Origin: Rhizophagus irregularis
Taxonomy: Eukaryota > Glomeromycota > Glomeromycetes > Glomerales > Glomeraceae
Assembly: GCF_026210795.1 (NCBI RefSeq)
Contig: NC_089432.1
Coordinates: 806,001 to 870,000 of the forward strand
Length of the DNA: 64,000 bases
Direction: 5' to 3'
The notes below the pieces were generated by a model. That model worked only from the letters and a program-made list of their open reading frames with translations. It was not told the DNA's origin and searched no databases. The translations under genes and the position numbers were made by a program. Shown here piece after piece: positions 1,805 to 58,700 of the stretch; within the stretch, counting starts at the first letter, position 1; each line of letters begins with the position of its first letter.

Positions 1805-4800
1805 TTAAATCATACAATCTTCAAAACTTTCACTAGCAAAACTAAGTAAGCCACTACAATCCAAGCAATCAGAGTTTTGATCTAAAATTTTGGTAGTTAA
1901 ACGGTTTGTATAATATGCTTGTGGACGAAATTGTATAATAGAAGTTTCAGTTTGTTCTTGCAATAAAGCTTTATTGGCTTTTACAAATTCTTCTATAACA
2001 TTTCTGTTTTGGTCCATATTAATACTAGTTATAGAATATTCACTATTTTCTTCATTCACTTCATAATATTCATTAACACATATAAGCCATTTAGATATAA
2101 TATTTTCAAGATCTCCTATAGTTGGTCTTTTAAAAGGGTCCGAATTCCAACATTTTTTCATTAAATCTATATAACATTTTGGAGTACTTTTTATAATTTC
2201 AGGACGTTCTCCTTCACAAATATCTATAATGAGTTGATGATCATGTACTTTATTATTAAATGGAGGAACACCTGACGTAAATTCCCACATTATCATTGAG
2301 AAGCTATAGATATCACTTGCTTGAACATAAGGTTGGTTTCTTAATGCTTCAGGTGCTATATACGGTATAATTCCATAAATTTTGTCAATTTCATTTTGTA
2401 ATGAGTCTTTTACGAGTTTACACAATCCTAGATCAATAATATATGTTTCAAAATTATCTGATATTAAAACATTACCATCATGAAGGTCACAATGAATAAG
2501 ATTTGATTCATGTATTGTCTTAAGTCCCAAAATAATATTTTTTAGTAATTGTAATTTGTATTGCCATTTAATTTTAGCTATGTCAGATAAACATTTTCTT
2601 AAACTTCCTTTTTTTGCATAACTCATTACTATTATATAATTTAAATTATTTGGGTCTTGAGTAATCCCAAAAATTTGAATAAATTTTGAAAATGATTTTT
2701 TCTGACAATTATAATGATATTTCCACTATATAAGTGATTAAAAAAATCATTAGTTTTAATAAATAAAAGAAAAAATAAAATAAAATTTACCTCACTTAAA
2801 AATCTATCAAAATTTGATGAATTATTAAAACATTTAAGAACAACTTCATAATTTGGTAGCCTATTCCACTGTTGTTTATTAAAATTCCAACTATTAATAG
2901 GACCATCTAGCCAAATAGCTTTATGGATTTCACTAAATCCACCTTTATCATAATAACTAATATTTTTCAATCTATTATAAGATATCCACTCTAAAACTTC
3001 ATAACTATTTTTAGCATTTAGTTGTGCTTCTTGAATAAATTCATCAATAAACTTGTTTTTACTTGTCCAACTTAAAAAATATTGTTGAAATTGTCTAGTA
3101 TTACATTTTTGACACCAATAGTAATCAGTAAATGGTTGTTTACATTCTTTACATAATTTATTACCATAAAAATTTTTAAGAATTATTTTATCATTTTCTG
3201 CTACTTTTTGATACCAATAAAAGGCTTTTTCTAAATTCTTTTCCGTTCCTTTACCATCATAATAACATCTAGCTAAATTAATTTGTGATTCTTTAACACC
3301 ATTTTCTGCTGCTTTTTGATACCAATGAAAGGCATCTTTTAGATTCTTTTTTGTTACTGTACCATAGTAATAACTTAAACCTAAATTAAATTGTGCTTCT
3401 TTAACACCATTTTCTGCTGCTTTATAATCCCAATAAAAGGCCTTCTTTAGATCCTTTTTTACTCCTTCACCATTAGTATAACAACCAGCTAAACTGTTCA
3501 TTGCATATTTATTACCATTTTCTGCTGCTTTTTGATACCAATAAAAGGCTTTTTCTAGATTTTTTTCTGTTTCTTTACTATTTCTATAATAGTTGGCTAA
3601 AGTATATTGTGCATTTTCTTCACCATTTTCTGCTGCTTTTTGACGCCAATAAAAGCCTTTTTCTAAACTCTTTCCTGTTCCTATACCATTATAATAAAAT
3701 ATAGCTAAATTAATTTGTGATTCTTTAACACCATTTTCTGCTGCTTTTTGATACCAATAAAAGGCTTTTTCTAGACTCTTTTCTGTTCCTTCACCATGTT
3801 CATAATGTATGGCTAGATTAAACATTGCTTCTTTAACATCATTTTCTGCTGCTTTGTAATACCAGTAAAAGGCTTTTTCCAATTTTTTTTCTGTTCCTTT
3901 ACCAGTTTTAAAACAATTGGCTAAATCACATTGTGCACTTTTATTACCATTTTCAGCTGCTCTTTGATACCAATAAACAGCTTTTTCTAGATTCTTTTCT
4001 GTTCCTTCACCATTGTAAAAATGTGTAGCTAAACTATTCATTGCACTTTTATGATCATTTTCTGCTGCTTTTTGATACCAATAAAAGGCCTTTTCTAAAT
4101 TATTTTCTATTCCTTTACCATTTTTATAATATAAAGCTAAACTGTTCATTGCATTTTTATCACCATTTTCTGCTGATTTCTGAAACCAATAAAAGGCTTT
4201 TTCATGATTCTTTTCTGTTCCTTCACCATTGTAATAATGTATAGCTAAATTATGCATTGCATTTTTATTACCATTTTTTACTGCTTTTTGAAACCAATAA
4301 AAAGCTTTTTCTAGATTCTCTTCAATTCCTTCACCATTATAATAATGCATAGCTAAATTAGCCATTGCATTTTCATCACCATTATCTGCTGCTTTTTGAA
4401 ACCAATAAAAGGCTTTTTCTAGATTCTTTTCTGTTCCTTCACCATTATGATAACATGCAGCAAAATTAAATATTGCATTATCGTTACCATTTTCAACTGC
4501 TTTTTGACACCAATAAAAGGCTTTTTTTTGATTCATTCCTATTCCTTTACCATTATGATAACATTTGGCCAAACCGTTCATTGCATCTTTAGAACCATTT
4601 TCTGCTGCCTTTTGATACCAATAGAAGGTTTTTTCTAGATTTTTTTCAGTTCCTTTACCAGTTTTAAAACATAAGGCTAAATTATATTGTGCATTTTTAT
4701 TACCATTTTCAGCTGCTCTTTGATACCAATAAACAGCTTTTTCTAGATTTTTTTCTGTTCCTTTACCATTTGCATAATATATGGCTAAAATGTTCATTGC

Positions 4801-6399
4801 ATCTTTATCACCATTTTCTGCTGCTTTTTGATACCAATAAAAAGCTTTTTCTAGATTCTTTTCTGTTCCTTCACCATTTTTATAACATGCAGCCAAATTA
4901 AATATTGCATTATTATTACCATTTTCAACTGCTTTTTGACACCAATAAAAGGCTTTTTCTAGATTTTTTTCTGTTCCTCTACCATTTGCATAATATATGG
5001 CTAAAATGTTCATTGCGTCTTTATCACCATTTTCTGCTGCTTTTTGATACCAATAAAAAGCTTTTTCTAGATTCTTTTCTGTTCCTTCACCATTTTTATA
5101 ACATGCAGCCAAATTAAATATTGCATTATCATTACCATTTTCAACTGCTTTTTGACACCAATAAAAGGCTTTTTCTAGATTTTTTTCTGTTCCTTTACCA
5201 TTTTTATAATGTATAGCTAATTTATTCATTGCATTTTTATCACCATTTTCTGCTGATTTTTGATACCAATTATAAGCTTTTTCTAGATTCTTTTCTGTTC
5301 CTTCACCATTTTTATAACATTTAGCTAAATTAAATTGGGCACTTTTACTACCATTTTTTACTGCTTTTTGAAACCAATAAAATGCTTTTTCTAAATTCTT
5401 TTCTGTTCCCTTACCAATGTAAAAATGTGCAGCTAGGCTATTCATTGCACTATTATGACCATTTTCTGCTGCTTTTTGATACCAATAAAAGGCTTTTTCT
5501 AGATCCTTTTTTATTCCTTCACCATTTTCAAAGCATACAGCTAAATTATTCATTGCAACTTCATTACCATTTTCTGCTGCTTTTTGATACCAATGAAATG
5601 CTTTTTCTAGATTCTTTTCTGTTCCTTTGCCATATTTAAAACACATGGCTAAATTATATTGTGCACTTTTATTACCATTTTCAGCTGCTTTTTGACACCA
5701 ATAAACAGCTTTTTCTAGATTCTTTTCTGTTACTTCACCATCTTTATAACATATAGCTAAACTGTTCATTGCATCTTTATTACCATTTTCTGCTGCTTTT
5801 TGATACCAATAAAAGGATTTTTCTAGATTCTTTTCTATTCCTTTGCCCTTTTCATAATATATTGCTAAATTATATTGTGCATCTATATGACCATTTTCTG
5901 CTGCTTTTTGGAACCAATAAAAGGCTTTTTTCAAATTCTTTTCTGTTTCTTCACTATTGCAATAATATACAGCTAAATTGTATATAGCCTTTGTATTACC
6001 ATTTTCTGCAGCTTTTTGAAACCAATAAAAGGCTTTTTCTAGATTCTTTTCTGTTCCTTTACCATTTGCATAATATATGGCTAAAATGTTCATTGCATCT
6101 TTATCACCATTTTTGGCTGCTTTTTGATACCAATAAAAAGCTTTTTCTAAATTCTTTTCTGTTCCTTTACCATCTTCATAACATAAAGCTAAACTGTTCA
6201 TTGCATTTTTATTATTACCATTTTCTGCTACCTTTTGATACCAATAAAAGGCCTTTTCTAGGTTCTTTTCTATTCCTTTACCATTTTCATAACATGCAGC
6301 TAAGGCAAATTGTGCAATTTCATCGCCATTTTCTGCTGCTTTTTGATAGCAATAAAAGGTTTCTTTTAACAAATCAATATTAACACTTGAATCACTCAT
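1805..6399 (-). CDS. Sel1-repeat/protein kinase fusion, 2 exons, 1509 aa
   Basis: Exon 1 is 6399-2791 and exon 2 is 2725-1805; the 65-nt intron (2790-2726) has GTAAAT and TAG ends. It restores the family wording FLSE|WKYHYNC and IQIFGITQDP. Residues 10-1085 are about 30 Sel1 units of 36 aa (consensus LEKAFYWYQKAAENG, then EKN). Next comes a CxxC...CxxC segment (CKECKQPFTDYYWCQKC), then a kinase. Kinase landmarks are the glycine loop GGFSEIHK (about 1153), VVLK Lys (about 1189), HCDLHDGN (Asp about 1283), DLG instead of DFG (about 1301) and APE. Substrate unknown. The order is reversed relative to the gene at 31.6 kb, where the kinase precedes Sel1 repeats. The C-terminal tail (FRPQAYYTNRL) is shared with the gene at 16.2 kb. 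Confidence is high for domains and intron, moderate for the start. Confidence 0.85.
3145..6372 (-). repeat. 108-bp coding tandem repeat, about 30 copies
   Basis: These are the Sel1 units of the fusion gene seen as DNA: period 108 bp, one unit of 111 bp (unit 2). Units 12-13 and 14-15 are nearly identical over 216 bp, and units 16 and 23 are also close, so unequal exchange has been recent. Open frames on the opposite strand in this interval are only shadows of the repeat. Confidence 0.9.
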
Positions 6400-16207: not shown

Positions 16208-16515
16208 TTACATCACATAAAATAATTGTGAATAAATACTTCTTTGTACATACAGTATTATATACATACCAAATGACTCCATATCATTAATTATATAATC
16301 ATCCAAATTTTCACTTTCTAGAATTCCATTCAATTTTCCACTAGTAAAATTAAGTAAGCGACTTGTATAATATGCTTGTGAATGAAATTTACTAGTATTG
16401 AGATTGCTACATCCAATTAAATTTGAAGTCAAAGGGGTACCATTAAGTGCTGAATCTGGTGTAGCTGATGATACTGGGGGTGCATCTATAAATTCCATAA
16501 CATTGCGTTTTAACT
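16208..16515 (-). pseudogene. Out-of-frame C-terminal tail of the micro-exon kinase
   Basis: After the kinase domain the reading frame stops at 16510 (INES*). The next frame continues without a stop through KLKRNVMEFIDAPP to HSQAYYTSRLLNF, which is the C-terminal tail found in frame in the paralogue at 1.8 kb (FRPQAYYTNRL). Changing frame needs one lost base around 16510-16520. Either a recent frameshift removed the tail or there is a base error. The kinase domain is not affected. Near 16270 a GTATGT could be a donor for a further small exon. Confidence 0.6.
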
Positions 16516-19500
16516 TTCATTAATATCTTTAATTTTCTTCCCATTAGGAATCATGATCCATTTTTTAATAATATCTAATACTTCTTCAGATGATGGTCTT
16601 TTTAATGGATCTTCATCCCAACACTTTTTCATCAAATCTACATAACATTGTGGAGTACTTTCAATAATTTCAGGACGTTCACCTTTACAAATACTTAAAC
16701 TAAGTTGAATATCATGTGCTCTATTATTAAATGGTGGAACTCCAGATGTAAATTCCCACATAATCATAGAAAAACTATAAATATCACTTGCTGGAGTATA
16801 AGGTTTTCCTCTCAAAACTTCAGGTGCCATAAATGACATCACACCATATAGCTTATCTTTTAAAAAAGATTCTGCAGGTTGACATAATCCTAGATCACTA
16901 ATATAAACTATATCCACTTTATTTTTTTGATTTTCTTTATTGTTATTATCATTCTTTTCATTTTTTTTATTATTATTATCCTCTTCATTTTCTTTATTAT
17001 CATGATCATCTTCATTTTCTTTCTTATCATCATCCTCTCCCTCATTATTATCATCCACTTCATTTTCTTTATTATTATCATCCACTTCATTTTCTTTATT
17101 ATTATCATCTACTTCATTTTCTTTATTATTATCGACTTTATTATTAACATCCTCTTTATACTCATGAAATAAAATATTACCATCATGAAGGTCGCAATGA
17201 ATAAGCTCTTGTTCATGTATTTCATTTAGCCCAGAAATAATTTGATACAAAATATATAATTTTTGTTTCCAATTATTTTGAATGATTTTTGTTAAATTTC
17301 CTCTTAAATTACCTCTGTTTGCATAATCCATTACTACCATATAATTTGAAGTATCTGGATCTTTTGTAAATCCATATAAATAAATAAAATTATATGAAAT
17401 TGAACAAATTATATGGTATTGCCACTATAAATATAAATTTAATATATTAGTATAAATAAATTATAGCTAAAATAAAAAAATAAATAATATATTATCATAC
17501 TTCTTTTAAAAATTCATTTAAATTTTCATTCAAATTATCAAGACATTTAAGAACTACTGTTTTATCTTTACGCTTATCTGACAAAATAGCTTTATATATA
17601 GTACTAAACCCTCCTTTATCAAGATATTCAACATTTTTAAATTTATTATAAGGAAACCATTTTAATCCCGTATGAAAAATAAATCTATCTAAAACCGTAT
17701 CTCCGCTTTCTCCTAATCTGCAAATTTAAACGAAGGTAGTCAAAATTTATATTAAAATCAAATTAAGAGAAAAAATAATACTAATACTTACTCTTAAATT
17801 TAAATAGAAATTTAAAAATTTAATATGATTTTAATATATATGTTGTGCCTCAGATCGATTCTTGCCTCAGATTGAAGCTCACGCACCTCACATTGAGATT
17901 GTCACCTGACGCACCTCATTTGAATCATTCAATAAAGTCTGTTATAAGTAAACTTTTTTTCTCATTAATTAAACCACTTTTTGTAACATAAACAAACTTG
18001 TGCACCATAACGAGTTACATGTTTCCTGAAATATTTATGTAAATCCAATTTATATTGAAGTTTATATTTGTGTTTTATCTGAAAAATCATTAAATTTTAA
18101 GTCATTTTTCAAATGAAAAGATTTAATAAGTATGATTCCAATTAATCTGAAATTATAGGATTGTATACTTAAAATAATGATAAATAAGTTTACTTAGTAC
18201 TTAAAAATACATTAAAATTGGAAATTTTGATGTTTAATTATAGCACATTTTTATTAGCAATTGAGGTGCGTCAGATGACAATCTCAATCTGAGGTGCGTG
18301 AGCTTCAATCTGAGGCAAGAATCAATCTGAGGCACAACATATATAATATATAATAACCTACAGTATATATAATTTAGTGTAACTTACCAACTAAATTAAT
18401 TGTCCAATATTTTTTTTAAAAAAATAATAAAATCAATTAATAAAAGTCGTAAATAAATATTGCAAAATATGTAATAATAAACTTAAATAGTGAACTTATA
18501 ACTTACAATCAAAAGTAAAAATATTATAATTTTTTTAAAAAAAGTTTTTGTTAAATTACATGTAATTATTATATAAATTAAATATATAACATTAAATTAG
18601 TAAATTTCTCACTCTCTATATCGTCAAATAATTATTTAAATAAAGTTTAGATAGTAAAAATTAGTACATGTAATTATATAGTTGTAAAAAATTAAATTAC
18701 AACTTACTAACTATAATAACTTGCCAAGTAATAAATAATTTTGTTAGTTTAGAGATCACATACATATATAATTAAAATAAAATAATTAACTTACTCCTTA
18801 TAATATTGAATAATTCTATACAAAAGTATATTTAGTAAATTATATAAAAACATCATATAAATTTATTATAATAAATTAAGATTAATAACTTACTCCCTAT
18901 TATTATGAAATAAAAAATTTAGTTAATAATATATAAAATATATACACAATAAATTAAATAACTTACACCCTAATTATTTAAATAAGAATGTGATTAGTTT
19001 AAACTTTAAAAACTTTAAATAATTATTACATAAATATATAAATAATAATAATAGAATTAAATAAATAACTTACGTCCTATAGTATTAAGTAGTTTTTTAA
19101 TTATAAATTTTAGTAAGTTTGAATTTATAATAACATTACTAAATAAATAACTTACTCACTATAATTTTATAAATAAAATTTTAGTTTATATTATATGCAA
19201 ATATTATATAGATATGTAAAGTAAAATTATAATTTAAAATGATAAAATTAAATAAGTAACTTACTTCCTATTATTAGATAATTGTTTAAATAAAGAGTTT
19301 AGTATTTTAATTTTTAAATTTATATAAATATCATAAATGAATAATAACAGAATTAAAAAACAATAGCTTACCCGCTATATTATTAAATAGTAATTATTTA
19401 AATAAAATTGGTTAATTTATACATATTATATAAATATTAAATAATCATTAGTAAATTGTAAAAAATTTGGTTAATTAAATCATATTAATAATATTATAAA

Positions 19501-22500
19501 ATAACTTATAACTTACAAGCTAAAATATAATGAAAAAATTAAAATTTAATTAGCTTAAACTATAAATCAATATTAATTAAATGACTAATTTATAACTTAC
19601 ATTCTATATTATTAGGTAATTTTTAAATAAAAATTTAATTAGTTTAAATTATAAAATATATAATAGTGGAATAAAATAAACAACTTACTTGCTATATTAT
19701 TAAATAATTTTCGAAATATTTAAATTATATAATTATTATATACTATACTGTAGTAAATACAATAACAGATTAAATATATAACTTACTCCCTAATTATTAA
19801 ATGGTAATTTAGATAAAAATTTAGTCAGTTTAATTCATAGTTAAATATTATTATATAAATTCAATATATAATTATAGAATTAATAACTTACTAACTATAA
19901 ACAATTTATTTATAAATAAAAGAATTAGTTATTTTATATAATAGTAAAATTAAATAATAATTTATGACTTACAAGCTAAGATTATAAATCATATTTTAAT
20001 TAGTAGTTTAAATTATAAATAAATGTTACACAAATGTGTAGTAATGTAATTAAACAAACAACTTACATGCTATTATTGAATAATATTTAATAAAATTTAA
20101 TTAGCTTAAACTATAAATAACTATTAATTAAATGACTAATTTATAACTTACATTCTGTATTATTAGGTAATTTTTAAATAAAAATTTATCAGTTTAAATT
20201 ATAGAATATATAATAGTAAAATAAAACCAACTTACTTGCTATAGTATTATTAAATAATTTTCAAAATATCAAATATTTTAAATTATATAATTATTATTAT
20301 TATATATACTGCAGATTAAATATATAACTTACACCCTAATTATTAAATAGTAATTAAATAAAAATTTAGTCAGTTTAATTTATAGTTAAATATAATAATA
20401 TAATGTGTAATAATAAATAACTTACACCCTAATTATTAAATAATTATTTAAATATTAAAATTAATTACACATAAATATCATATAAATATGTATAAATAAT
20501 TAAAAAAATAAATAACTTACACTCTAATTATTAAATATAAAATTTAAATTACATGTAAATGTTATATAAATGTGTAATAATAAAATAATATATAAATAAA
20601 AAACCAACTAGTTAGTTTAAATTATATGTATATATTAATAATTTATAATAATAAAATAAATAAACAATCAACTTACTTCCTATTATTGTATGTATTATCA
20701 GGTAATTATTTAAATAAAGAATTATAAAGAATTTAGTTTGTTTAAATTATATAAGCATATTTCAACTTAATTGTTTGTTTAATATATGGATTTACTGAGA
20801 GTTTTAGGAAAGGGTAGTTTCATTAAATGTATTAAATAAAACGAATGTAATAAAATTTTGGAAATTTTAGAAAATTTTAGAAATTGTAATTTAAAATTAA
20901 AGGGGCATTTTAATCATATAATATTATCAAAATTTGAGGAGTGGTATTTGTTAAACAAGCAATTAAGTTGCCTATATAATGTGTAAATATGCAATGTCAT
21001 AAATTAAATGAATAACTTACTTCCTATGTTTAAAATAATTTTTTAAATAAAATTTGATAAATTTAAATTTTATATAAATATACGTGTATAATAAAAACTT
21101 ATAGTTTACCAGTACCTTTATAAATTATTAAATAATTATAGTAAATTGTATAAATATTATACAAATAAACATAAATTTAATATATAACTTACAAGCTGTA
21201 ATAAATTACCATATAGTTAATTAAATAAAGAATCTAATTAGTTTAAATGATATGTATTATTTAATTATATAATAATAGAATAATATAAATAGTTTATAAC
21301 CTACCATCTATAATGAATTAAGAATTAAATTAATTGAAATTATGTAATAATATTATATAATTATAATATCATGATTAAATAAATAGTTTATAACCTACAA
21401 GCTATAATGAATTAAAAATTTAGTTAGTTAATAAATTATTTATAAATATTGTATAATTACATAATAATAGGATTAAATAAGTAGTTTATAACCTACCAAC
21501 TATAATGAATTAAGAATTTAGTTAATTAAAATAATATATAAATATTACATAATTATATAATAATAGGATAAATAAGTAGTTTATAACTTACCAACTGTAA
21601 TAAATTTAATAAATAAAGAATTTAGTTTGAATTATTTGTAAATATTGTTACATAATAATAGACTAAATAAATGGTTTGTAACTTACAAGCTGTGGTGGAT
21701 AAAGAATTTGGTTAATAAGAATTATATGTAAATATATATAATTAAATAATTTATGACTTACCAACTATAATAAGTTATCAAATAATTATAAAAATAAAGA
21801 ATTTAATTAATTAAAATAATATGTAAATATTGCATAGCTATATGATAATAAGATCAAATAAATAATTTATAACTTACCAGCTATAATAAATAAAGAATTT
21901 ATATTAATTAAGATAATATATAATTACTGTATAATTATATAATTATAAAATTAAATAAATAATTTATAACATACCCACTATAATAAATAAAGAATTTGGT
22001 TAATTAAATTTATTTATAGATTATATAATATTATAATTAAATAATTTATGACTTACTAGCTATAGAAAATTACCAAATAATTATATAAATAAAGAATTTA
22101 GTTAACTAAAATAATTTGTAATATTGTAATAGGATTAGATAAATAATTTATAACTTACCAACTATAACAATAACCAAACAATTATATAAGTAAAGAATTT
22201 AGACAATTGAAATAATACATAATTATTACATAATTAGGCAATACAAACTTAATTTTTCAGTTCTCATATCCCAGCTGGATGGGTCAGTTTCTGTTAAATC
22301 TCAAAAAAAAAATTTTTATATTATTATTATACCAGATAAGGTTTTATAAAAGTTAAAAAAAAATCAAAGCCAGGTTGCCAGGTTATGTCGTGTTATGAGA
22401 ACCAAAAAATTAAGTTTGCATGACTTATAGGATTAAATAAGTAATTTATAACTTACCAGCTATAATAAATAAAGAATTTATGTAAATTAAAAAATATGCA

Positions 22501-25500
22501 ATTTTATAGGATTAAATAAGTAATTTATAACTTACCAGCTATAATAAATAAAGAATTTATGTAAATTAAAAAATATGCAATTATCATATAATAATACAGT
22601 AATTTGTAACTTACGATCTATATTATTAAATAATAAAATTAGTCAGATTTACTTAATTAGATCATATAAATATATAATAATAAATTAAATAAATAATTTA
22701 TATAACTTACAAACTAAATGACAAGGTTAAATGAAAAATTTAGTTAATCAAAATAATTATATAATTATATAATAATAGTATTAAATAATTTATAACTTAC
22801 CAACTATAATAAATAAAGAATTTGGCTAATTAAGATTGTATGTATATATTGCATGATTATATAATAATACAGGATTAAATAAATATGACTTACTCCCTAT
22901 AATAAATAAGGAATTTATGTGGTGTAAAAGGATCGATTAGATCAATAACAGATTTGGCTACCGTTTTTTTGTGGTAAATAAATAGTTTATAACTTACAAA
23001 CTACAATAAATTACCAAAAAAAAAAAAAAATGGTGATTTAAAATACAAATATACAGTATAATAACAGGATTAAATGAATAGTTTATAACTTACAAACTAT
23101 TATAAAATACCAAATAATTATATAAATAAAGAATTTAGTTAAAATTATTTGTAAATATTATAATAATAAGATTAAATAAATAATTCATAACTTACCAACT
23201 ATAATAAATAAAGAATTTAGTTAATTATAAATTATATAAATTATAATTATATGTAAATATTATATAGTACCAGAAGTCTATACTTGCATAAAATTTAAAG
23301 AAATAAACTGGTGCTTTCTTCTACAAGACGAGTACTATTATATTACCAGTCAGATTTCAAAAAATGACTACATAAAAGTTATAAGTATTTAAAATATGTT
23401 GATTTTTATATAATCAGCTTAAAATCATGTGATTTCAATTTTATTTAGCCAATATTTTTTAATGACATTTATTTATTGAATACCATTCTAAGGCTTAAAA
23501 CATTCCAATATTTAAATTCAGCTTATTATCAGTTTGATTTTCTGAAACAGATGCCAAAACTGTTGCAATCTTATGATAATTTTTTTGCCAATTTCCTTTT
23601 TATGCTTGATTGTTATACTTTTCATATAAAATTGTGGATTTTTATTGGCCAATTTTTTACTCACATGATGGATTAGAAATTTGAAACATTGTTAAGTATA
23701 GACTTCCAGCACCATAATGATAAGAATAGAATTAAATAAGTAATTTATTAACTTACTTTCTGTAGTAATTATCAGAAATAAAAATTTAATTAAACTTATT
23801 ATATGTAAATTTATTTATATATAAGTTTAAATAAATAATTTATAACTTACCACCATCTATAATAAATATATAAAGAATTTGGTTAATATAACTATTAAGC
23901 AAATATATGCAAATATATAAATTTAATAATGTAATTAACAGAGGTGCAAACTTTACTGACATAACTGCCATAAAAAAGCTACGACAATATGCTTACATAG
24001 AAATTTATAATAATTTATATAATATTAAGCTACATCACGAGTTCCAACCTTTCATTAGTGATGTAGCTAAAAAAAGAAAAAGTCTGCACCCCTAGTGATT
24101 AAATAAATAACAGGTTTTGTTTTTTATCACACCCGCAATATATCACACCCATATAAAAGTCAAATACAGCATTCTAAACCCTTTGATATACTAAGTAAAA
24201 TTGTAAAGCAGGCAAAAATAAGCATACTATATGGTTTTTTAAGTGTTACAATAGGTACATAGTTTTTGCGCCAAAAATGTGAAAAATTTTTGGCTAAGAT
24301 CGGCAAAGATTGGCATATTCATTATATAAAAATTGCCAAAAGGGAGCGTATCGCATATGCAAAAAAAATTAAATCCATAATAATAAATTAAAATAAATCA
24401 CTTATATAACTTACCAGCTATAATAATAAATCACCAATTTCATAAATAAAGAATTAAAATAATTAACATTATATGTAAATATCAAATAAATAAATATGTC
24501 ATAATAACATTAAAATTAACTTACCATCTGCATTTTTAAATAATTTAAAGAATTAAGTTAGTTAAGATTATTTGTAAATTCTGTATAATAAATTTGTATA
24601 TATTAACTTACAATCTATAATAAATTACATAAATAAAGAATTTAGTTAATTAAATGTTATATCATTACATAGTAATAGAATTAAATAAATAATTTATAAC
24701 TTACAATCTATAATAAATTACATAAATAAAGAATTTAGTTAATTAAATGTTATATCATTACATAGTAATAGAATTAAATAAATAATTTATAACTTACAAT
24801 CTATAATAAATTACATAAATAAAGAATTTAGTTAATTAAATGTTATATCATTACATAGTAATAGAATTAAATAAATAATTTATAACTTACAATCTATAAT
24901 AAATTACATAAATAAAGAATTTAGTTAATTAAATTATATGTAAAGATTACATCATTACATTAAATAAAATTAAATAAATAACTTACTCCCTATGATAAAA
25001 TAATTGTATAAATATAATTAAATTATATGTAAATATTATTTAAATATAATAAAACAATTTATATCTTACATACTATATTATTTATTATTAAATAATTTTT
25101 AAATAAAATTTAGTTAGTTTAACTTAGTATATATAATTATTTTATAAATATATTATAATAGGATTAAATAATAACTTATAACTTACATACTAATATATTA
25201 TAAATGATTATAAATAAATAAATTGTTAGTTTAGTAGATCATATTTAATTATATAATAGATATAACTTACCGACTATAATAAATTACCATATGAATAAAG
25301 AATTTAGTAATTATAAATATCATATAAATAAATATACAATTATAACTTACATGCTATATTATTAAATAATTTTTAAATAAAAAATTTAGTTAGTTTAAAT
25401 TATATATTAATTATATGATGATAAAGTTCAATATAACAATTTTAACTTACCAACTAGTAAATAATAAATTAATGTTTAAATTATATATAATTATACAATA

Positions 25501-28500
25501 ATAAAGTTCAATATAACAATTACAACTTACCCGCTATAATAAATTAACAAATAATTTTTGATTAAGGATTTAGTTAGTTTAATTATATATAGATATATAT
25601 ATATAAATATGAAATGAAGGAATTTTAACTTACTAACTATAATAAAGTAGTTCCAAATAATTTTAATTAAAGAATTTAGCTTGGACCATTAATTATGTAA
25701 ATGTCTAATAATAAATTTGAATAACTTCTACTTACTAACTACAATCAAATAACAAGTAATTTTTAAATAATATAGTTAGCTTATATTATATGTAAATATC
25801 TTACAAATATTAATTATCGAATAATAAATAAATAATTTCTAACTTACTTGCTATATTATTCATATCATTATTAAACAGTTTTAAATAAGGATTTTAGTTA
25901 GTTTAAATTATATGTAAATCTTATACAAATGTTTAATAGTTAAATAAATAATAACTTATATATAACTTACAATCTATAATAAATTAACAAATAAATTATA
26001 AGAGTTAACTTAGTTTAAATTATATAAAAATATTATATAATTATCTAATAATAAATTTGAATAGTAACTTCTACTTACAAATTATAATAAATTAATAAAT
26101 AATATATTAGCTTTATATTATATGTAAATATCACCCCTGTAAAAAATCTGATCCGTGTTTGTTTTTTCCGTGAATGTATCATTTTCACGGAATTTTTACG
26201 GAAGACACGATACATCAATTGGAATTATAGCGATAATTTATTATTGAGAAATAATGGAAATATTCGGATAAAAATTTTTTATAGGGCACACAAATATGAA
26301 TATGAAATTAATAAATAAATAATTTCTAACTTACTTGCTATATTATTTATATATTAACAAATTTTAAAAATAAAGATTATAGTTAGTTTAAATTATATGT
26401 AAATATTATAAGCATATATAAATATTAAATAACTTATATATAACTTACGAACTATAGTATAATTAAATATATTTATAAAAAAAGAAATTAGTTAGTTTAA
26501 ACTGCATTATTAATAATTATAAATATAGATTAAATAAAAATTTATAACTTACCGACTATAATAAATTTTAAATAATATAATTAATTTATATGTAAGTATT
26601 ATGCAAATATGTAATTTATAAAAGTAACAAATAAATAATTTCTAACTTACTAGCTATAATAAACCACCAAATTTAAAGAATTTAGTTAGTTTAATTTAAT
26701 ATATATATATAAGTATAAAAATAAAAATAATGTGAACTTACTAACTGTAATAAATTAATACCATAAATTTAATTGAAGAATTTAGTTTGTTTGATTGTTT
26801 TTATATAAAAGTCTAATAATAAAATTAAATAAGTAATTTATGGTGGCTTACCCCCTACAATAAAAATAATTTTATAAAAAAAGAATTTAGATAGTTTAAA
26901 CTTTAAACTATAATAATTATTATATAAATATATAATAATAAGGTTAAATAAATTTACTTACAACCTAAAATAAATTATCAAGTTTAGTTGCCTTAATTGT
27001 ATATAAATATCATATAAAAGTATAATAATAAAATTAAATAAATAATTTATGGCTTACAACCTATAATAAATTATCAAATAATTTCACAAATAAGAAATTT
27101 TGTTAGTTTAAACTAAGTAATTATTATATAGGTATATAACAATAGGATTAAAGAATAACTTACGATCTAAAATAAATTAACAAATAAAAATTTAGTTCGT
27201 TTATGTACTAATTGTTATAATAATTAATAATAAATATAAACAAATAATTTATAACATACCATCTATAATAAATTACCAAATATATAATATTATAAATAAG
27301 TGAATTTAATTAGATTAAATCATATATTAGCATTATACAAGCTCTAAATATGTCTTATCAGGTTGAGACTAAAATATTGGGTTATAGGTTAAACCAAGTT
27401 TATCACAAATAAATAAATTACTTACTTCCTACATTAATAAATAATTTTAAAGAATTTTGTTAATTTAAATTGTGTATAGATATTATAACAAATGCATAAA
27501 AATAAAAAAAATAAGCAACTTACTCTCTATTTATTAGATAATTAATCAAGTAAATAATTCAGTTAGTTTAAAAGCTTATATTATACTGCTATAATAAAAA
27601 TATGTAGCAATTAGACTAAATAACTTATAACTCACTTGTTAGGCCTATTAAATAATTTTTTTCAATAAAAATTTGGTTAATTAAATTATATGTAAATATC
27701 TTATAATAAAATTAAATGAGTAATTACGTACTATATTATTAAATAAATATTTGATAAAAAATTTGATTGATTAATATTATGTATGTTATATAAATATGCA
27801 ATAATAAAATTAAATAAATAACTTACTTTTTCCTAATTTTTAATAAGAAAATTGTTAATTTTAAATTATTATATACATGGATATAATATAAAGATGTAAT
27901 AATGAAATTAAGTAAGACTTACTTCCTACTATATTATTCGATAATTTTTTAAATAGAGAATTTAGTTCATATATATTGTATAAATATATGATAATGGAAT
28001 TTAAAACTTACTCCCTATATCATTGGATAATTTTTAATTAAGGAATTTGGTAATTTAGATTATGTATATAATTGTATAAAATAATTGAATAAACAATTTA
28101 CTTTCTACATTAAAGAATTTTTAAATAAGACTTACTTCCTATTTTATTAAATAATTTTCAAATGTTAGTTTAAATCATATTGATAAAATTGAATAAATAA
28201 ATTGTGACTTACCAACTATAATAAATTATCAAATAATTTTAAATTATAGAGTTAATATATAAATTATATAAATATGCAATAATAAAATTAAATAAATAAT
28301 TTGTAACTTACAGTCTAAATCAAATTACCAAAATAATTTTATATAAATATTATATAAATATGTAATAATAAAATTAAATAAATAGTAATTTATGACTTAC
28401 AACCTAAAATAATTTACCAAATTAATTTTTTATTAGTTAGTTATATGTGAATATTATAATATTAGAGTAAAATAAATAACTCACTCTCTACATTATTAGA

Positions 28501-29489
28501 TAATTTTTTTTGAATGAAAGAATTCAGTTAGTTTAAGTTATTTACAATATATGTGGTAGAATCAAATAAATAACTTACTCTCTATAATATTTCAATATTT
28601 TTTTTAAAATTTGGTTAATTTAAGTTATTTAAGTATATAATAATAGAATTAAATAAATAACTTATAACTTACTCTCTACATTATTAAATAATTCATTTTT
28701 AAATAAAAAACTTAGTTAGTATACAATATAGACTGAATATTGTATATAATAGAATTATGTAACTTACCAACTAAGTATTTACCAAATAATTTTGATTAAA
28801 AATTTAGTTAAATATATAAATAATAATAAAAGCATAAACAACCTATAACTTACACCCTATAATATTATTGATCGTTAATTAACTAGACGTAAATATTATT
28901 ATAAAAGTATATATAATTAAATTATAACTTACAATCTAATTTTAAATAAAAAATCAAATTAGTTTGAATTAAACGTGGATATTATATAAATAAAATACAC
29001 ATGAGTATAATATATCCTACCTTCTATAATATCATTAATCATTTAATGATTATTTGAACATGAAAGTTAATTATTTCATTTGAATATCATATAAAATGCA
29101 TTAAAAAAATAAATAACTAATAACTTACTAACTATAATTTTAAATTATTTAGTCATAAATATAAAAAATATTGTAAGTAATTCAACTATTATTCAAATTG
29201 TAAGATGACCAATTATTGACTTACGAGCTAAAATATTTAAATAAAAATAAGTTAGTTCCTATTATTTGTGTATATCACATAGAATTAAGAAACTTTTAAT
29301 TCATAAATATATTTGAATTACAGCTTGTATAGCAAATTATATTTACCTTCAGATTCCATAGCGCCGCTTGAATCTAGTTTTATTATAATATTGCAAATTT
29401 ATTACAAAATTTTAAAATAATTATATAATTCTAATTTGTATTATACATTCATGTTATATTCTTTTACCTTCATCATTTCTATGAGCCAT
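16510..29489 (-). CDS. Micro-exon protein kinase gene, about 98 exons, about 490 aa predicted
   Basis: Transcription runs from ATG at 29489 to TAA at 16510. Exons: 29489-29468 (22 nt), 29373-29347 (27 nt), 94 micro-exons of 3-9 nt (29227-18388), 17712-17501, and 17424-16510. All introns up to 17713 are phase 1. Residues 1-116 come from exons 1-2 and the micro-exons. They hold a basic patch (30-43, GKRRRKIRLTKRND) and two hydrophobic stretches (44-61 and 71-90), possibly membrane segments. The kinase follows: GGFSTIYK (149-156), VVLK Lys 171, HCDLHDGN Asp 264, DLG Asp 363, MAPEVL. An 80-residue Asn/Asp/Glu/Lys insert (276-355) separates catalytic and metal loops. The usual CxxC N-terminus of this kinase family is absent. 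Kinase exons are firm; inclusion of the micro-exons is inferred from splice signals and frame. Confidence 0.7.
16930..17160 (-). repeat. Low-complexity coding insert in kinase domain
   Basis: A 27-bp tandem repeat encoding DNNKENEVD about three times, followed by related acidic/Asn-rich units, in all about 80 residues. It lies between HCDLHDGN and the DLG motif, where most kinases have about 15 residues. Period and codon repetition suggest expansion by slippage. A disordered loop on the kinase surface is expected. Confidence 0.85.
17501..17712 (-). other. Exon joining micro-exon array to kinase
   Basis: 212 nt encoding GESGDTVLDRF through GGFSTIYKA, VVLKCL and EFLKE. Two acceptors are possible: TTTGCAG ending at 17718, or GATTAG ending at 17713. 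Only the second gives the kinase frame after a phase-1 micro-exon; the first meets TAG at once in that phase. The 3' donor is GTATGA (17500). The next acceptor is TATAG before TGG (17424), giving EFLKE|WQYH, the family junction. Confidence 0.8.
17842..18338. mobile_element. 497-bp MITE with about 78-bp terminal repeats
   Basis: The arms 17842-17919 and 18261-18338 are inverted complements with only a few mismatches, starting GTTGTGCCTCAGAT and ending ATCTGAGGCACAAC-like. Within each arm CCTCAGATTGA-like words repeat. The flanks are AT-rich (ATATAT on both sides), so the target duplication cannot be fixed. It lies in the last intron of the array, next to a unit whose acceptor is lost (donor GTAAGT at 17791). 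Confidence 0.85.
18388..21115 (-). other. Micro-exon block 4 (24 exons)
   Basis: 21110 GTACTG (acceptor ATAAAG); 21021 GAA; 20677 GAA; 20521 AGT; 20426 GGT; 20333 GGT; 20236 CAA; 20152 AAT; 20067 CAT; 19973 CTT; 19892 TTA; 19787 GGA; 19689 CAA; 19601 AAT; 19517 CTT; 19372 CGG; 19265 GAA; 19156 TGA; 19074 GAC; 18967 GGT; 18894 GGA; (18795 GGA, no AG in frame); 18708 TTA; 18613 AGA; (18507 ATT, no AG); 18388 TTG. Phase-1 product: residues 91-115 (CTGRKWWSKS, SFRTKSSGMR, RWIKI). Dropping 21110 would create TGA with the next exon, so it must be included. Confidence 0.65.
20763..20970. mobile_element. 208-bp MITE inside an array intron
   Basis: Terminal arms CAACTTAATTGTTTGTTTAA (left) and TTAAACAAGCAATTAAGTTG (right) are inverted complements with about one mismatch. 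The interior is less AT-rich and unrelated to the array. It lies between the micro-exons at 20677 and 21021 and leaves both sets of splice signals intact. Confidence 0.75.
22244..22419. mobile_element. About 176-bp MITE inside an array intron
   Basis: The left arm CAAACTTAATTTTTCAGTTC and the right arm GAACCAAAAAATTAAGTTTG form inverted repeats of about 24 bp with a few mismatches. It lies between the micro-exons at 22159 and 22457. The target duplication is not resolved. Confidence 0.7.
23268..23713. mobile_element. About 445-bp MITE inside an array intron
   Basis: The left end CCAGAAGTCTATACTT and the right end AAGTATAGACTTCCAGC are inverted complements over about 16 bp. A 66-aa open frame inside has no motif and is not convincing. 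It lies between the micro-exons at 23196 and 23757. Confidence 0.7.
23938..24370. mobile_element. Two non-array insertions in one intron
   Basis: 23940-24094 has GAGGTGCAAACTTT at the left and AAAGTCTGCACCCC at the right, imperfect inverted ends of a small MITE. From 24110 to 24370 follows a GC-richer stretch (TCACACCC twice, GCGCCAAAAATG) with no match to the array and no clear terminal repeats. Both sit between the micro-exons at 23851 and 24415. Confidence 0.5.
24415..27060 (-). other. Micro-exon block 2 (25 exons)
   Basis: 27058 GTT; 26962 GTT; 26852 GGG; 26742 TTA; 26651 CTA; 26553 TCG; 26449 TTC; 26335 CAA; (26079 TTT has no AG acceptor); 25971 ATT; 25848 CAA; 25736 TTA; 25634 TTA; 25531 CGG; 25451 TTG; 25351 CAT; 25271 TCG; 25187 TAT; 25070 TAT; 24987 GGA; 24891 ATT; 24798 ATT; 24705 ATT; 24612 ATT; 24525 ATG; 24415 CTG. 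Phase-1 product: residues 43-67 (RCWVTIVPNS, IITVAFVLWN, YYYYA), the first hydrophobic stretch. Confidence 0.65.
26131..26287. mobile_element. About 155-bp MITE inside an array intron
   Basis: The left end CCCCTGTAAAAAATCTGATCCG and right end CGGATAAAAATTTTTTATAGGG are imperfect inverted complements (each written to the arm limit). The interior holds a second hairpin, CCGTGAATG...TTTTCACGG. It lies near the unit at 26079 that has no acceptor AG; the insertion may have relaxed selection on that unit. Confidence 0.6.
27164..29227 (-). other. Micro-exon block 1 (23 exons)
   Basis: Left coordinate and minus-strand bases: 29225 CTC; 29129 TTA; 29021 AAG; 28933 ATT; 28854 GGT; 28768 TTG; 28673 AGA; 28579 AGA; 28485 AGA; 28401 GTT; 28312 ACT; 28213 TTG; 28136 GAA; 28102 AAA; 28012 GGA; 27923 GAA (or 6 nt TAGGAA); 27827 GAAAAA; 27728 TAC; 27636 GCCTAACAA; 27524 AGA; 27426 GAA; 27260 ATG; 27164 ATC. 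Phase-1 product: residues 17-42 (ALKDWFEKKS, YFGKRRRKIR, LTKRND). Confidence 0.65.
29347..29373 (-). other. Second coding exon, 27 nt
   Basis: Bounded by AACTAG (acceptor, ending at 29374) and GTAAAT (donor from 29346). In phase 1 it encodes DSSGAMES and E, ending with one base G. Its length is a multiple of three, like all following micro-exons. It is clearly less AT-rich than its surroundings, as expected of a coding exon. Confidence 0.7.
29468..29489 (-). other. First coding exon of micro-exon gene
   Basis: 22 nt: ATG GCT CAT AGA AAT GAT GAA G, then the donor GTAAAAG at 29467. Encodes MAHRNDE plus one base (phase 1). Start chosen as the only ATG giving an open, phase-compatible exon before the array. 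Confidence 0.65.
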
Positions 29490-30370
29490 TATTATATATT
29501 TCTTTCTAAAAGAAAGCGTATATTTATTAAACGAATATGAATATGGGTATTTATATAGTTATTTGGGATAGTTATTTGGGTAGTACCAAGTATTCAGGTT
29601 ACAGGGTTACAGCCAGATTTACTTAATACAGTAAGAATGTATTACAAACAAGTGCAATTATGTTGATCAACAATCAACACAAAAAATTGCATTGCGTGAC
29701 AAAAAAAAAATAACATGAAGCTTTGGTATGCTAAGTTTTATTGAAATCTTCAAAACATAAAACCATCAATACTATTTCTAAATGGGTCACTTCTCATTGG
29801 TTGTAAATTAAATTTCGATTATTAAATTTAAATGATAATTTCATAATTATTTGATATCTATGGTTTTAGAATTAAGTGAACGAAAAATAATTAACTATTT
29901 AAACGGGTTCTTACAGATTATCATAAGGTATGTAGTACTGTATTTTCAGTAGGCAGAAAACAAAAAAAATAGCAATCCAGTTATTTTAATAATACAGAGA
30001 ATCAAAATTTGTGATATAAGAACTGAAGTAAAATTATTAAGTTATTTTGTTTTTTATTTATTTTTTTTTGCAAACAGGAACATACTGTATATATCATGTA
30101 TTTTATTATTTAAATTTATATAGAATTTCATTATTAAAAAATTTTTACCTTTATAAAATAATAATATTAAGAAGGCACATAATTGAAATTAATATATTCC
30201 AGCTACGGATCGTCCTTTGTCGTCGATGATCCATTAAATGACTTTTTCTGTCGATCAAAAATTTTCAAGTTGAAAAAAAAAGAAGAGTTATATGTGTTTG
30301 TTTGTTCTATTTACAAAATTACCCGACGAAAATCTATATAAAGTATAATAAAGGAATGACAACATCTGGA
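29490..30370. other. Upstream region of the micro-exon gene
   Basis: No supported gene on either strand. It is the presumed promoter region of the minus-strand micro-exon kinase. No GTACTAC/TATA layout was recognised near 29500-29600. A 60-aa frame at 30047 has no motif. Confidence 0.4.
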
Positions 30371-55758: not shown

Positions 55759-58700
55759 TATGCGGGATGCATAAATTGCATCCCATGCATAGTAATTCTG
55801 ATATACATGGGTATTTAAATTATTTAATAAATACATCATAATTGTCTCATGCGCAGCTTTTTTTGATACGCGTCTAAATTTAGACTTTTTTATTTCACAT
55901 GATCATGTGTTTAAATTATATTTTACTTTTTTTTCCCAACGATTATCATCTTTCCTCTTCCCCTCTCTTCCTCTCTTCCTATCTCCCCTCTTCTTCTCTA
56001 GTCTCTCCTCTCAACCTCTTTCTCCCACTTATAAATTTTATTACAACTAAAATGAGTGACTCCGAATTTATGTCAAGCGATGATGAAATTTTCGATGAGG
56101 CTTTTGATAATGATTTTATTGAAAATATTCCTAACGACAGTGACTCTGATGGTGAAGATAATGGCGGTTCCTCCAATGAAACTCTGAAATTGGAAGTTGG
56201 GATGGCTTTTCTCACCTGGAAGATTGCATTTAACCACATCAAGCAATGGGCTCACCAACAGGGCTTTGGCATACGCAAAGGAAGATCAGAAAAAATAGAA
56301 TCTAAATTAAGAAAACAAACAATTGTATGTTTCTGTGAAGGGGTTTATAATAATCAATCAAAAAAAACTAACAAACCATCAAAAACACATCGCACAAACT
56401 GCAAATGGCATGTTAATCTTTTTCGGCCAACAAAAAATAACCAAAACTCTATGATTTTCATTACTACAATTGTTGATGAACATTCTGGACACAGTTTGGA
56501 TCCTTGTGCACGTCGATTTGAAGCAGATAAAGCTTTTACAAAACCAATGTTAGATGATATTGAATGGATGTATGTGCATGGTCATTTAAAGCCATTAGCA
56601 ATTAAACGAATGTTGAAGGCTAAATATAAACGTAAAGTTTATAACAAGGATCTTTATAAAATAATTTACAAGTACCATCGCAATATTGATCAATTAGGCA
56701 ATGATGTTTCACAACTTTTTGAGTATCTTGAAAAATGTAAGGAAGATGATCCACGTTGGATAATTTATAAAGATTGGGACCGTGAAACCAACACACTGAC
56801 GAAACTTTTTTGGATGAATCCTGATCAATTAGAAACTTGGTATCGCTATAATGATGTAATTCTTAATGATAATACTTCAAAAACAAATCGTTATGAAATG
56901 TCTCTTTCTTTTTTTGTAGCAATAGACAATAGTATGAAATCTCGAATTGTAGCACAAGCATTGATGGATCGTGAAACAAAGGATGCGTACGCTTGGGTTT
57001 TGCAATGTACAATTGATGCAACAGGAATTATTCCAAAAGTATTCATAACAGATGCTGATCCTGGTATGGATCTAGCTATTCGGTTAAAATATTCATCCAC
57101 ATTTCCTATTCATTGTATCTGGCATATTGGACAGAATTTACCTTTACGTCTTAAGTCAAAGCTTGGTGGTTTATTTGACCAATTTAAAAAAGATTTTTAT
57201 GAATGTAGGAATAGTTTGAAACAAGAAATATTTGAACATCGTTGGGCAAATTTACTTATTAACTATCCAAATGCTGCTAATTATCTTGAAAAGTTTCTTT
57301 ATCCTTCTAAATGTTCTTTGGCTCGAGCATTTAGTGTCATGATTTTTACAATAGATATTCAAACAACATCACGTTGTGAATCTGTTAATGCCACATTTAA
57401 AAATCTCTTACAAAATTCAAATAATACACTTGTAGATATATTTTTTACTATTGAAGAGCGGTTAGAAGAAGAGTAAGATAATACTGATTATTTAAATTGG
57501 CAGAACTCTCTTACAACAATTCAATCCAGTACAATAGCTTCTAATGCTTTTACTGATGTAATTAACGAACTCAAGGATTTTACAACTCCTTCAATTCAAA
57601 AAATTCATAATAATGAAATGGAATTGGCATTTAGTTATGACGCTAGACCTTTGGATCAATCTTATATTAATAATGAAGATTCTCATGTATGATGTTAATT
57701 ATTAAGTTCATTTATTTTTCAGATTGATATGTAACAAATTTTAACTCTTTTTTAGGATTTATTATTTGCTAATGATTTTATTGAAAAACAAGAAGTACGG
57801 CAACTTTCCTTTCAGCAACTTTTACTATCATGTGACCAGAAAGAAATTAAAAGTCTTTGGGGCGTTAGCTATTTAACCTCTTCCGATACACACCATTTAG
57901 TCATTTTATTAGATAATGGGATGTATAAATGTTCGTGTATGTCTCTGATTAATCGTGGTACTGTTTGTAGGCATTATTTCTGTGTAATGTTACGAACATC
58001 TCAAGCTCAATTCCATATTGGATTCCTTAATCCGCGGTGGTTTGTTGAAACTTCTCCAGATCTTAGGAGTCGTCCATTCTGTCCTGCTTCGAAGTTTAAA
58101 ATGGATTTGGTTATTCCATATTTAGAATCTAATAATCCTCCTAATTTTCTTCATTCAATAAATGAAAATATTTTGAATAGAAATAATCCGTATGTCACTC
58201 TTAGTAAGCAAAAGTTATATTATATGAATATTAAAGGTTTGTCTAAACAAACAAGTTGTGTTGCTTGCAAAACTTGTGATGAATCTTTTGTTACATTACT
58301 TGAGGATTATATTACCAAGAAAAATCATGAAGCATTGGAGTTGGCGCAACTTGGATCATTAAACAATCGATCTCAAGATTTGATTAATTTAGAACCTGAT
58401 CAGGAAAATGCTGAACAACTTGGAAATCCTATAATTTGGCGGCCTAAGGGAAGACCTCCGGGAGTTGCAAGGTACAAAAATCCTTTAGAGGAATCATCTA
58501 AACCTAACGAAGGTACCTGTAAAAGAAAAAATCAACAAAATAAATGTAGTTTGTGTAATAATGTTGGACATAATCGTACAACTTGTCCTTCAAATCCAAA
58601 TGGAAAGAAAAGGAAAACATCATTGTAATTTAATGGCTCCCTTCGGTCGCCTGTTTGCATTTTAATAGTATTTTAATAGTATGAGCTTATCTTTGATACT

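Follow-up and report, generated by a model that had tools for sequence, protein, structure and literature searches.

How can a reading frame be carried through a run of some ninety exons that are nearly all a single codon long? The question is raised by a stretch of 64,000 nucleotides of Rhizophagus irregularis DNA (hereafter the window), in which an earlier note had described one minus-strand gene with about 94 consecutive 3-nt micro-exons, through which the N-terminus of a kinase would be put together nearly one codon at a time. Judged from the sequence, we consider it very probable that the array consists of real single-codon exons, which are all kept, in their genomic order, and read in phase 1 ahead of a TKL-like kinase.

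The window gene and its array

The window gene is a single minus-strand gene that extends from 29489 to 16510 and comprises a 22-nt exon with the ATG, a 27-nt exon, a run of repeated units and a protein kinase; all features given below lie on the minus strand. Exon 1 (29468-29489) encodes MAHRNDE plus one nucleotide and sets phase 1, and exon 2 (29347-29373), which runs from phase 1 to phase 1, encodes DSSGAMESE; both are found exactly as first claimed. The 22-nt ATG exon was found also in loci L002, L004, L007, L009, L010 and L019, by a script that imposes the expected phase. Each unit of the array (18388-29227) has the form of an intron (GTAAGT, a CTAAC-like word and a terminal TAG) followed by 3 nt, and the first array codons, A-L-K-D-W-F, are similar to the first codons of the paralogues. 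A strict parse, which admits exons of 3 or 6 nt only, recognizes 90 units in the window, namely 88 exons of 3 nt and two of 6 nt (GAAAAA at 27827-27832 and ATGGTG at 23851-23856). Two further exons stand outside the strict counts, a 9-nt exon (GCCTAACAA, donor GTGAGT, 27636-27644) and a 3-nt exon with a weak donor (TAC, 27730-27728), and bring the number of window units to 92. A free parser that allows exon lengths from 1 to 12 nt yields 94 units, of which 89 are 3 nt long and two (8 nt and 2 nt) are doubtful; the original figure of about 94 is thus correct within a few units. In the free parse, the window introns have a median length of 93 nt, the shortest being 70 nt and the longest 558 nt.

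The spacing between acceptors and donors is nearly invariant. For the 86 GTAAGY donors on the minus strand of 17700-29500, the nearest upstream YAG lies at 3 nt in 79 cases, at 6 nt in two and at 21 nt in one, and four have no upstream YAG inside 30 nt; the strand, limits and anatomy first proposed for the array are borne out. When YAG-N(k)-GTAAG was counted in the window array for k = 0 to 12, 80 occurrences were obtained at k = 3, three at k = 6 and none at any other k, whereas 200 order-4 Markov shuffles averaged 6.2 occurrences at k = 3 and never exceeded 15. One candidate exon, AAA at 28104-28102, would leave an intron of 31 nt and was dropped.

Some units of the window copy are decayed. 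The unit TTT (26079-26081) retains an intact GTAAGT donor, while its acceptor has become TAA, and no YAG acceptor precedes the units near 26081, 18790 and 18500. The strict window model also contains one in-frame stop, at CTT|GAA over the 169-nt gap 21192-21024, which counts against our main reading. The free parser places no unit in this gap. A candidate 6-nt exon (GTACTG, 21110-21115) was recognized there by eye; it is weak, with an AAG acceptor and a GTAAAC donor, it is absent from the free parse, and it is the only means found to remove the stop. With several of its units decayed, the window copy may be a damaged gene. Three paralogues, L003, L009 and L019, possess exons 1 and 2, a stop-free strict array and the kinase exon, and look intact.

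Downstream of the array, a 1-nt exon (A) lies at 17792, with the acceptor AAG in the window copy and TAG in the paralogues inspected. It is followed by the first kinase exon (LGESGDTVLDRFIFHTGLKWFPYNKFKNVEYLDKGGFSTIYKAI..., 17501-17717), which is entered with one base. This exon had previously been taken to start at 17712 (TTAG|GAG); comparison with the paralogues moves the start to 17717 (CAG|ATTAGG), after the 1-nt exon, and 17712 stays as a frame-compatible alternative in the window copy, where the kinase exon can also be entered in frame through an additional acceptor (TTAG, last base at 17713). The second kinase exon (16510-17424) ends at the stop codon and carries a PK_Tyr_Ser-Thr/Pkinase domain. 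Against Pfam PF07714 the window kinase scores 98.6 bits (cut-off 23.1, E 4.7e-28), a match that, we assume, places it in the TKL group.

Several other elements were observed in the window. Within the kinase, a minisatellite of about 27 bp (16925-17133) forms a long insert rich in D, N, K and E, which separates the catalytic loop (HCDLHDGN) from the DLG motif. The last long intron of the gene (17850-18350) contains a repeat with inverted ends (GCCTCAGATTGAAGCTCACGCACCTCA), and by eye a repeat of that family also lies behind the final unit of L014. At 2641-6399, a 1252-aa ORF has a long run of repeats and then the start of a kinase-like region; the repeats are presumably of the Sel1 type, as are those of more ORFs across the window. 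Two transposase-like ORFs, with a zinc knuckle, lie at 55899-58628, and we take them to resemble a MULE-type transposase.

A genome-wide family of arrays

The assembly that contains the window (146,748,485 bases, 32 contigs) was searched with the pattern TAGNNNGTAAGTTA and its spacing variants. TAG and GTAAGTTA are separated by exactly 3 nt at 4268 sites, compared with 86 sites at a spacing of 4 nt and 163 at 6 nt; the reversed-pattern controls for spacings of 3, 4 and 6 nt gave 175, 214 and 152. The longer pattern TATAGNNNGTAAGTTA occurs 2129 times (reversed control 15), and tandem unit pairs, with 60-90 nt from the first donor to the second acceptor, occur 1077 times (control 0). A chance origin of the spacing is ruled out by the spacing counts, the shuffles and the reversed-pattern controls.

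Twenty-three stretches, picked by pattern hits and hence not at random, were fetched and, together with the window, gave 18 arrays of 17-110 strict units each, with 785 exons of 3 nt and seven of 6 nt (792 in total). The free parse of the first 11 arrays, with exons of 1-12 nt, assigned 3 nt to 544 of 579 exons. The largest array (L019 with L022) has 110 units in about 11.6 kb. Among the 792 strict units, 432 match TAGNNNGTAAGTTA and 237 match TATAGNNNGTAAGTTA; scaled accordingly, the genome would hold about 7700 or 7100 such exons, roughly 7000, if the sample is typical. By the same kind of extrapolation, about 160 arrays would exist genome-wide, given that the arrays of this non-random sample average 44 units (792 in 18). 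What had been described as one gene with a micro-exon array is thus a real array that belongs to a genome-wide family; the family, the 1-nt exon and the codons that vary beyond their introns had all been missed.

The kinase exon was located for 15 of the 18 arrays and exons 1 and 2 for 10 of the 18, by scripts that imposed the expected phase, so these counts are not an independent test of it. L014 and L015 are counted among the 18 arrays although they are broken, and no kinase lies behind either of them (2/18), which counts against the main reading. The L014 array is terminated by an inserted repeat, and in L015 (with L021) 31 units are followed directly by a C-terminal family remnant, the kinase domain being gone; this locus is likely a pseudogene. 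The pattern ATTTAGAGTAAGTNTNA, used as a gene-end marker, pulled in one array-less locus, L018, in which no strict 3-nt unit was found in the 9 kb fetched. The site of the 1-nt exon is still present as AG-A-GTAAGT in a kinase gene of this family at L018:6075, which ends C-terminally in a long coiled-coil-like ORF. A search with one predicted protein, in which 150 of 2858 candidates were scored, revealed no version of the array stretch free of introns; the matches were kinase parts or crossed stops into an intron.

The units carry the signals of spliceosomal introns. The donor is GTAAGT in 706 of the 792 strict units. In the 686 introns of at most 130 nt, to which the branch-point count, the cross-gene intron comparison and the 686-junction test described below are all restricted, the transcript strand has 339 occurrences of CTAAC, most of them 40-50 nt ahead of the acceptor, against three on the opposite strand, and CTAAY or YTRAC is present in 526. 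At the sequence level, the micro-exons are therefore flanked on both sides by the donor, branch point and acceptor of GT-AG, U2-type introns. The lengths of the same 686 introns are distributed 238/235/213 over the three residues modulo 3, that is, intron length is free of three, and none of 774 introns is shorter than 60 nt. The possibility that the array lies on the opposite strand is ruled out by the donor spacing and by the strand bias of CTAAC.

Reading phase and order of joining

Exon 1 leaves one base and exon 2, with its 27 nt, does not change the phase; the 3-nt exons accordingly stand in phase 1, in which each codon is made of the final base of one micro-exon and the first two bases of the next. 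The kinase exon requires phase 2 (A|TAT GAA AAA AGT GGA in L001 and A|TTA GGA GAA AGC GGA in the window, frames read by hand), and the 1-nt exon provides the one base that the kinase frame needs. A site for this exon is found within 900 nt after 16 of the 18 arrays, 15 times as A and once as C.

The order of the micro-exons was examined through the stop codons that their junctions would create in phase 1. Between direct neighbours separated by introns of at most 130 nt, none of 686 junctions makes a stop codon (0/518 when each exon pair is counted once per gene), whereas 33 of 756 junctions to the next-but-one exon do (25/571 with each pair once per gene; Fisher p 4e-10 for 0/686 against 33/756), and junctions further apart do so in 3.95-5.97%. 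When the order of exons was permuted within genes (5000 permutations), stops averaged 32.9, with a minimum of 17. If all neighbouring strict junctions are included, three of 774 make a stop, over gaps of 169 nt (window), 290 nt (L004) and 310 nt (L010), and these count against the main reading; the free parser places units in the gaps of L004 and L010, which it does not do in that of the window. Even with doubtful exons admitted, the free parse of 11 arrays contains four phase-1 stops (L003, L005, L010 and the window), whereas 2000 permutations averaged 28.2 and gave no fewer than 17. Phase 2 yields 111 stops in 686 junctions and phase 0 yields four in 799 codons; the scarcity of stops thus separates phase 1 from phase 2 better than from phase 0, and phase 0 is disfavoured because of exons 1 and 2 and the neighbour test.

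An array of this kind could be thought to serve codon-level alternative splicing, in which the micro-exons are combined in many ways and each gene gives rise to very many N-termini. Any skip would indeed remain in frame, given the near-uniform unit length and the assigned phase, there are 17-110 units per array to choose from, and the smallest alternatively spliced exon cited in one paper on micro-exons is 3 nt long (PMC4674806). However, a single skip creates a stop about as often as in the permuted order (33/756), while joining of neighbours never does (0/686), so that only the full ordered product is kept free of stops; rare skipping is compatible with this pattern, and combinatorial use of the units appears improbable. 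The absence of stops between direct neighbours means that the open frame has been preserved for the product with all micro-exons present and each spliced to the adjacent one, which argues for full ordered inclusion and against a functional role for skipping.

The composition of the micro-exons points the same way. Read in phase 1, their GC content is 48, 35 and 24.5% at codon positions 1, 2 and 3, against 38, 25.5 and 13.8% in 16 kinase-bearing ORFs and 9.7% in the intron interior; the order over the codon positions is that of the kinase ORFs and is unlike the introns, and the micro-exons therefore look translated in phase 1. Together with the stops and the 1-nt exon after 16 of the 18 arrays, this is evolutionary evidence in support of the proposal that the kinase N-terminus is assembled almost codon by codon. 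In a separate observation over all arrays, base 2 of the micro-exons, the wobble position of the codon, is C in 2.5% and G in 22%, the values in the kinase-bearing ORFs being 4% and 10%.

Charged and aromatic residues would be frequent in the encoded stretch (R 10.6%, W 6.1%, Y 6.0%). In the strict translations, 14 of the 18 predicted stretches open with a [DN]-W pair, and 8 of the 18 with the full A-L-x-[DN]-W. No Pfam family scored above its cut-off for three predicted N-termini, one of them a chimera. The strings predicted by splicing evenly spaced units include GRKQLEHYYWKFECYRYER in L009, LEQLEQQQLE in L019 and NRKFDIKKKRID in L001. The 110 units of L019 (with L022) form a Q/L/E-rich, coiled-coil-like repeat and are mainly of a few exon types (AAC, TTG, GGA and GAA); other genes prefer other codons.

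Divergence of codons, growth of arrays and known systems

For each unit, we selected the partner in another gene whose 80 flanking intron bases (40 per side, splice sites excluded) were most similar. Where the flanks of the partner were at least 95% identical, the exon was identical in only 43 of 128 units; mismatches amounted to 30, 41 and 53% at exon bases 1 to 3 and to 3.2% in the flanks. Control 3-base windows at 14 other offsets, chosen by the same rule, were identical in 63-98% of cases (86-116 units each). Without the repetitive L019, the exon was identical in 7 of 84 partners, and five rerun controls gave 54/55, 69/74, 62/69, 53/63 and 46/52. Within genes, by comparison, the exon was identical in 81% of 232 partners (controls 87-99%), and in 98.5% of the 136 pairs whose flanks were identical over 80 nt. 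A blastn comparison between arrays, in which low-complexity stretches fell out of register and some of the gene pairs were done, served as a lead only. The simplest reading is that diversifying selection on the peptide has made the codons change much more quickly than the introns, as the contrast between exon and flank would suggest.

The same contrast might arise if the introns were homogenised, by gene conversion that spares the exons or is purged at them, with no faster change of the codons. Intron types do recur across genes, and conversions that alter the protein would meet negative selection. In 116 within-gene pairs with unlike exons, the five acceptor-side bases mismatch in 6.0%, slightly above most bins. 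In 838 between-gene pairs with unlike exons, on the other hand, the five bases beside TAG and beside GTAAGT mismatch in 2.7 and 2.3%, values to which splice-site constraint possibly contributes; the intron bases that adjoin the splice sites show no excess variation in these pairs, and mismatch has no clear rise toward the exon, contrary to what purged conversion tracts would leave. We therefore regard homogenisation as possible but the less likely source of the contrast.

The alikeness of the introns also bears on the origin of the arrays. In the window, 3.6 exact copies of a 93-bp unit, composed of an intron and the exon ATT, stand in tandem at 24604-24934 and represent a recent duplication of entire units. 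Growth by duplication of units is the most likely course because of these exact copies and because exons are identical in 98.5% of pairs with identical flanks. Alternatively, near-identical introns could have been inserted, in the manner of introners, between the codons of an older continuous coding sequence. Among 310 pairs of full-length introns that share 95-98% identity between genes, most of which lie on different contigs, the preceding exon is identical in 16% and the following exon in 27%, and the best intron matches between L009 and L019 are not collinear. Such insertion, if random, would not yield exons of near-constant 3-nt length in a single phase; moreover, exact tandem copies carry the intron together with its codon, and within a gene identical flanks of 80 nt go with identical exons. 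Within the arrays, then, alike introns do lie beside different codons, yet 1077 tandem pairs are present, and spread by insertion seems unlikely compared with unit duplication.

It is far less credible that the array is a satellite-like repeat with words that resemble splice sites, which is either left unspliced or removed as a single long intron. The exact tandem copies would suit a satellite, exon 2 joined straight to the 1-nt exon is also in frame, some copies are decayed or lack a kinase, and the stop-bearing gap of the window holds no unit in the free parse. But phase-1 stops are absent between neighbours only, the composition is codon-like, exon length stays constant while intron length drifts, and the variability of the exon is limited to its three bases.

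If the arrays are single-codon exons added by unit duplication, the following mechanism may be proposed. The primary transcript would contain about 90 short complete introns, each recognized alone by intron definition. With an acceptor and the next donor 3 nt apart, adjacent introns would have to be removed in succession and not together. Each 3-nt exon would be retained and joined to its direct neighbour, and the closing 1-nt exon would shift the phase and bring the kinase exon into frame. The product would be a TKL-like kinase whose N-terminal stretch, about 20-110 residues long, varies between genes, and tandem duplication of an entire intron and codon would lengthen it by one residue at a time with the frame intact. 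We infer the splicing and translation of the array from anatomy, spacing, branch points, phase, stops and composition; whereas anatomy, phase and family can be read off the genome, transcription, the order of intron removal, selection and function are deduced from them. Perhaps, and this is a guess, the array stretch serves recognition upstream of the kinase. Precedents for the successive step exist in plants, where sequential intron removal was proposed by Guo and Liu for the 1-nt exon of APC11 (PMC4674806) and where, in a micro-exon study, the data suggest that the two flanking introns are removed successively (PMC8831610).

Comparison with known systems places these arrays apart from each of them. 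Repeat arrays with hypervariable codons occur in the zinc fingers of PRDM9 and in the WD40 repeats of fungal HET-E; the exons of schistosome micro-exon genes (MEGs) measure about 6-36 nt and their products are secreted; aphid bicycle-type exons are many times longer than 3 nt; and in recursive splicing, or with zero-length exons, neighbouring introns are removed stepwise at an adjoining acceptor and donor. In the window array and L001-L010, no GTAAGY donor has a YAG at 0 nt, and, unlike recursive splicing, every step here would leave a codon in the mRNA.

As described in the cited text, the coding region of MEGs consists mostly of very small symmetrical exons and evolves fast (PMC4350168). The likeness lies in the small symmetrical exons and the rapid evolution, a run of such exons being found here too (785 of 792 are 3 nt long, with phase 1 supported); unlike in MEGs, nearly all array exons are one codon, up to 110 stand in a row, and a kinase lies at the end of the product. 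Aphid bicycle and megacycle genes, with the miniature-exon cassette effectors, are reported to diverge rapidly and to contain many micro-exons that almost all share a phase, one gene having more than 100 of them (PMC9168663). They resemble the arrays in the many micro-exons of nearly uniform phase and in the pace of divergence, but encode putative insect effectors without a kinase, whereas the arrays here precede one.

That spliceosomes are able to retain exons of 1 and 3 nt is evident from the 1-nt exon of Arabidopsis APC11, the 3-bp micro-exon of Drosophila homothorax and plant micro-exons of 1-15 nt, for which sequential removal has been proposed (PMC4674806, PMC8831610, PMC7392893). In the cited passages these cases are isolated or paired, unlike the thousands found in runs here, with 16 of 18 arrays closed by a 1-nt exon. 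The HYP effectors of cyst nematodes are described as having very variable coding positions (PMC4177990); unlike in HYP, PRDM9 and HET-E, the conserved part of the unit here is the intron and the coding part is one codon. On the evidence of these passages, lone 3-nt or 1-nt exons and genes with many micro-exons in one phase are already known (PMC4674806, PMC7392893, PMC4350168, PMC9168663). No report of runs of single-codon exons appears among the matches listed, which came from open PMC papers.

Taken at its widest, the family may comprise on the order of at least 100 fungal kinase genes with an N-terminal minisatellite of single-codon exons, in which tandem duplication adds or takes away single residues with the frame intact and selection rewrites the codons while the introns stay nearly unchanged; this would be a diversity-generating repertoire of recognition segments on kinases, perhaps for self/non-self or partner recognition, and its decoding would require tens to about 100 successive splicing events per mRNA; on this extended proposal we are evenly divided. 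If RNA confirms the arrays, they would be, to our knowledge, by far the densest use of micro-exons. The handling by the spliceosome of dozens of introns one codon apart would then become testable, and the arrays would provide a natural assay for the order and fidelity of splicing and for protein evolution one residue at a time. In one published annotation of Rhizophagus irregularis, introns were capped at 3000 nt when long RNA reads were mapped (PMC10234402). Since an array can be as long as about 11.6 kb (L019), standard annotation may lack the N-terminal parts of a large family of kinases.
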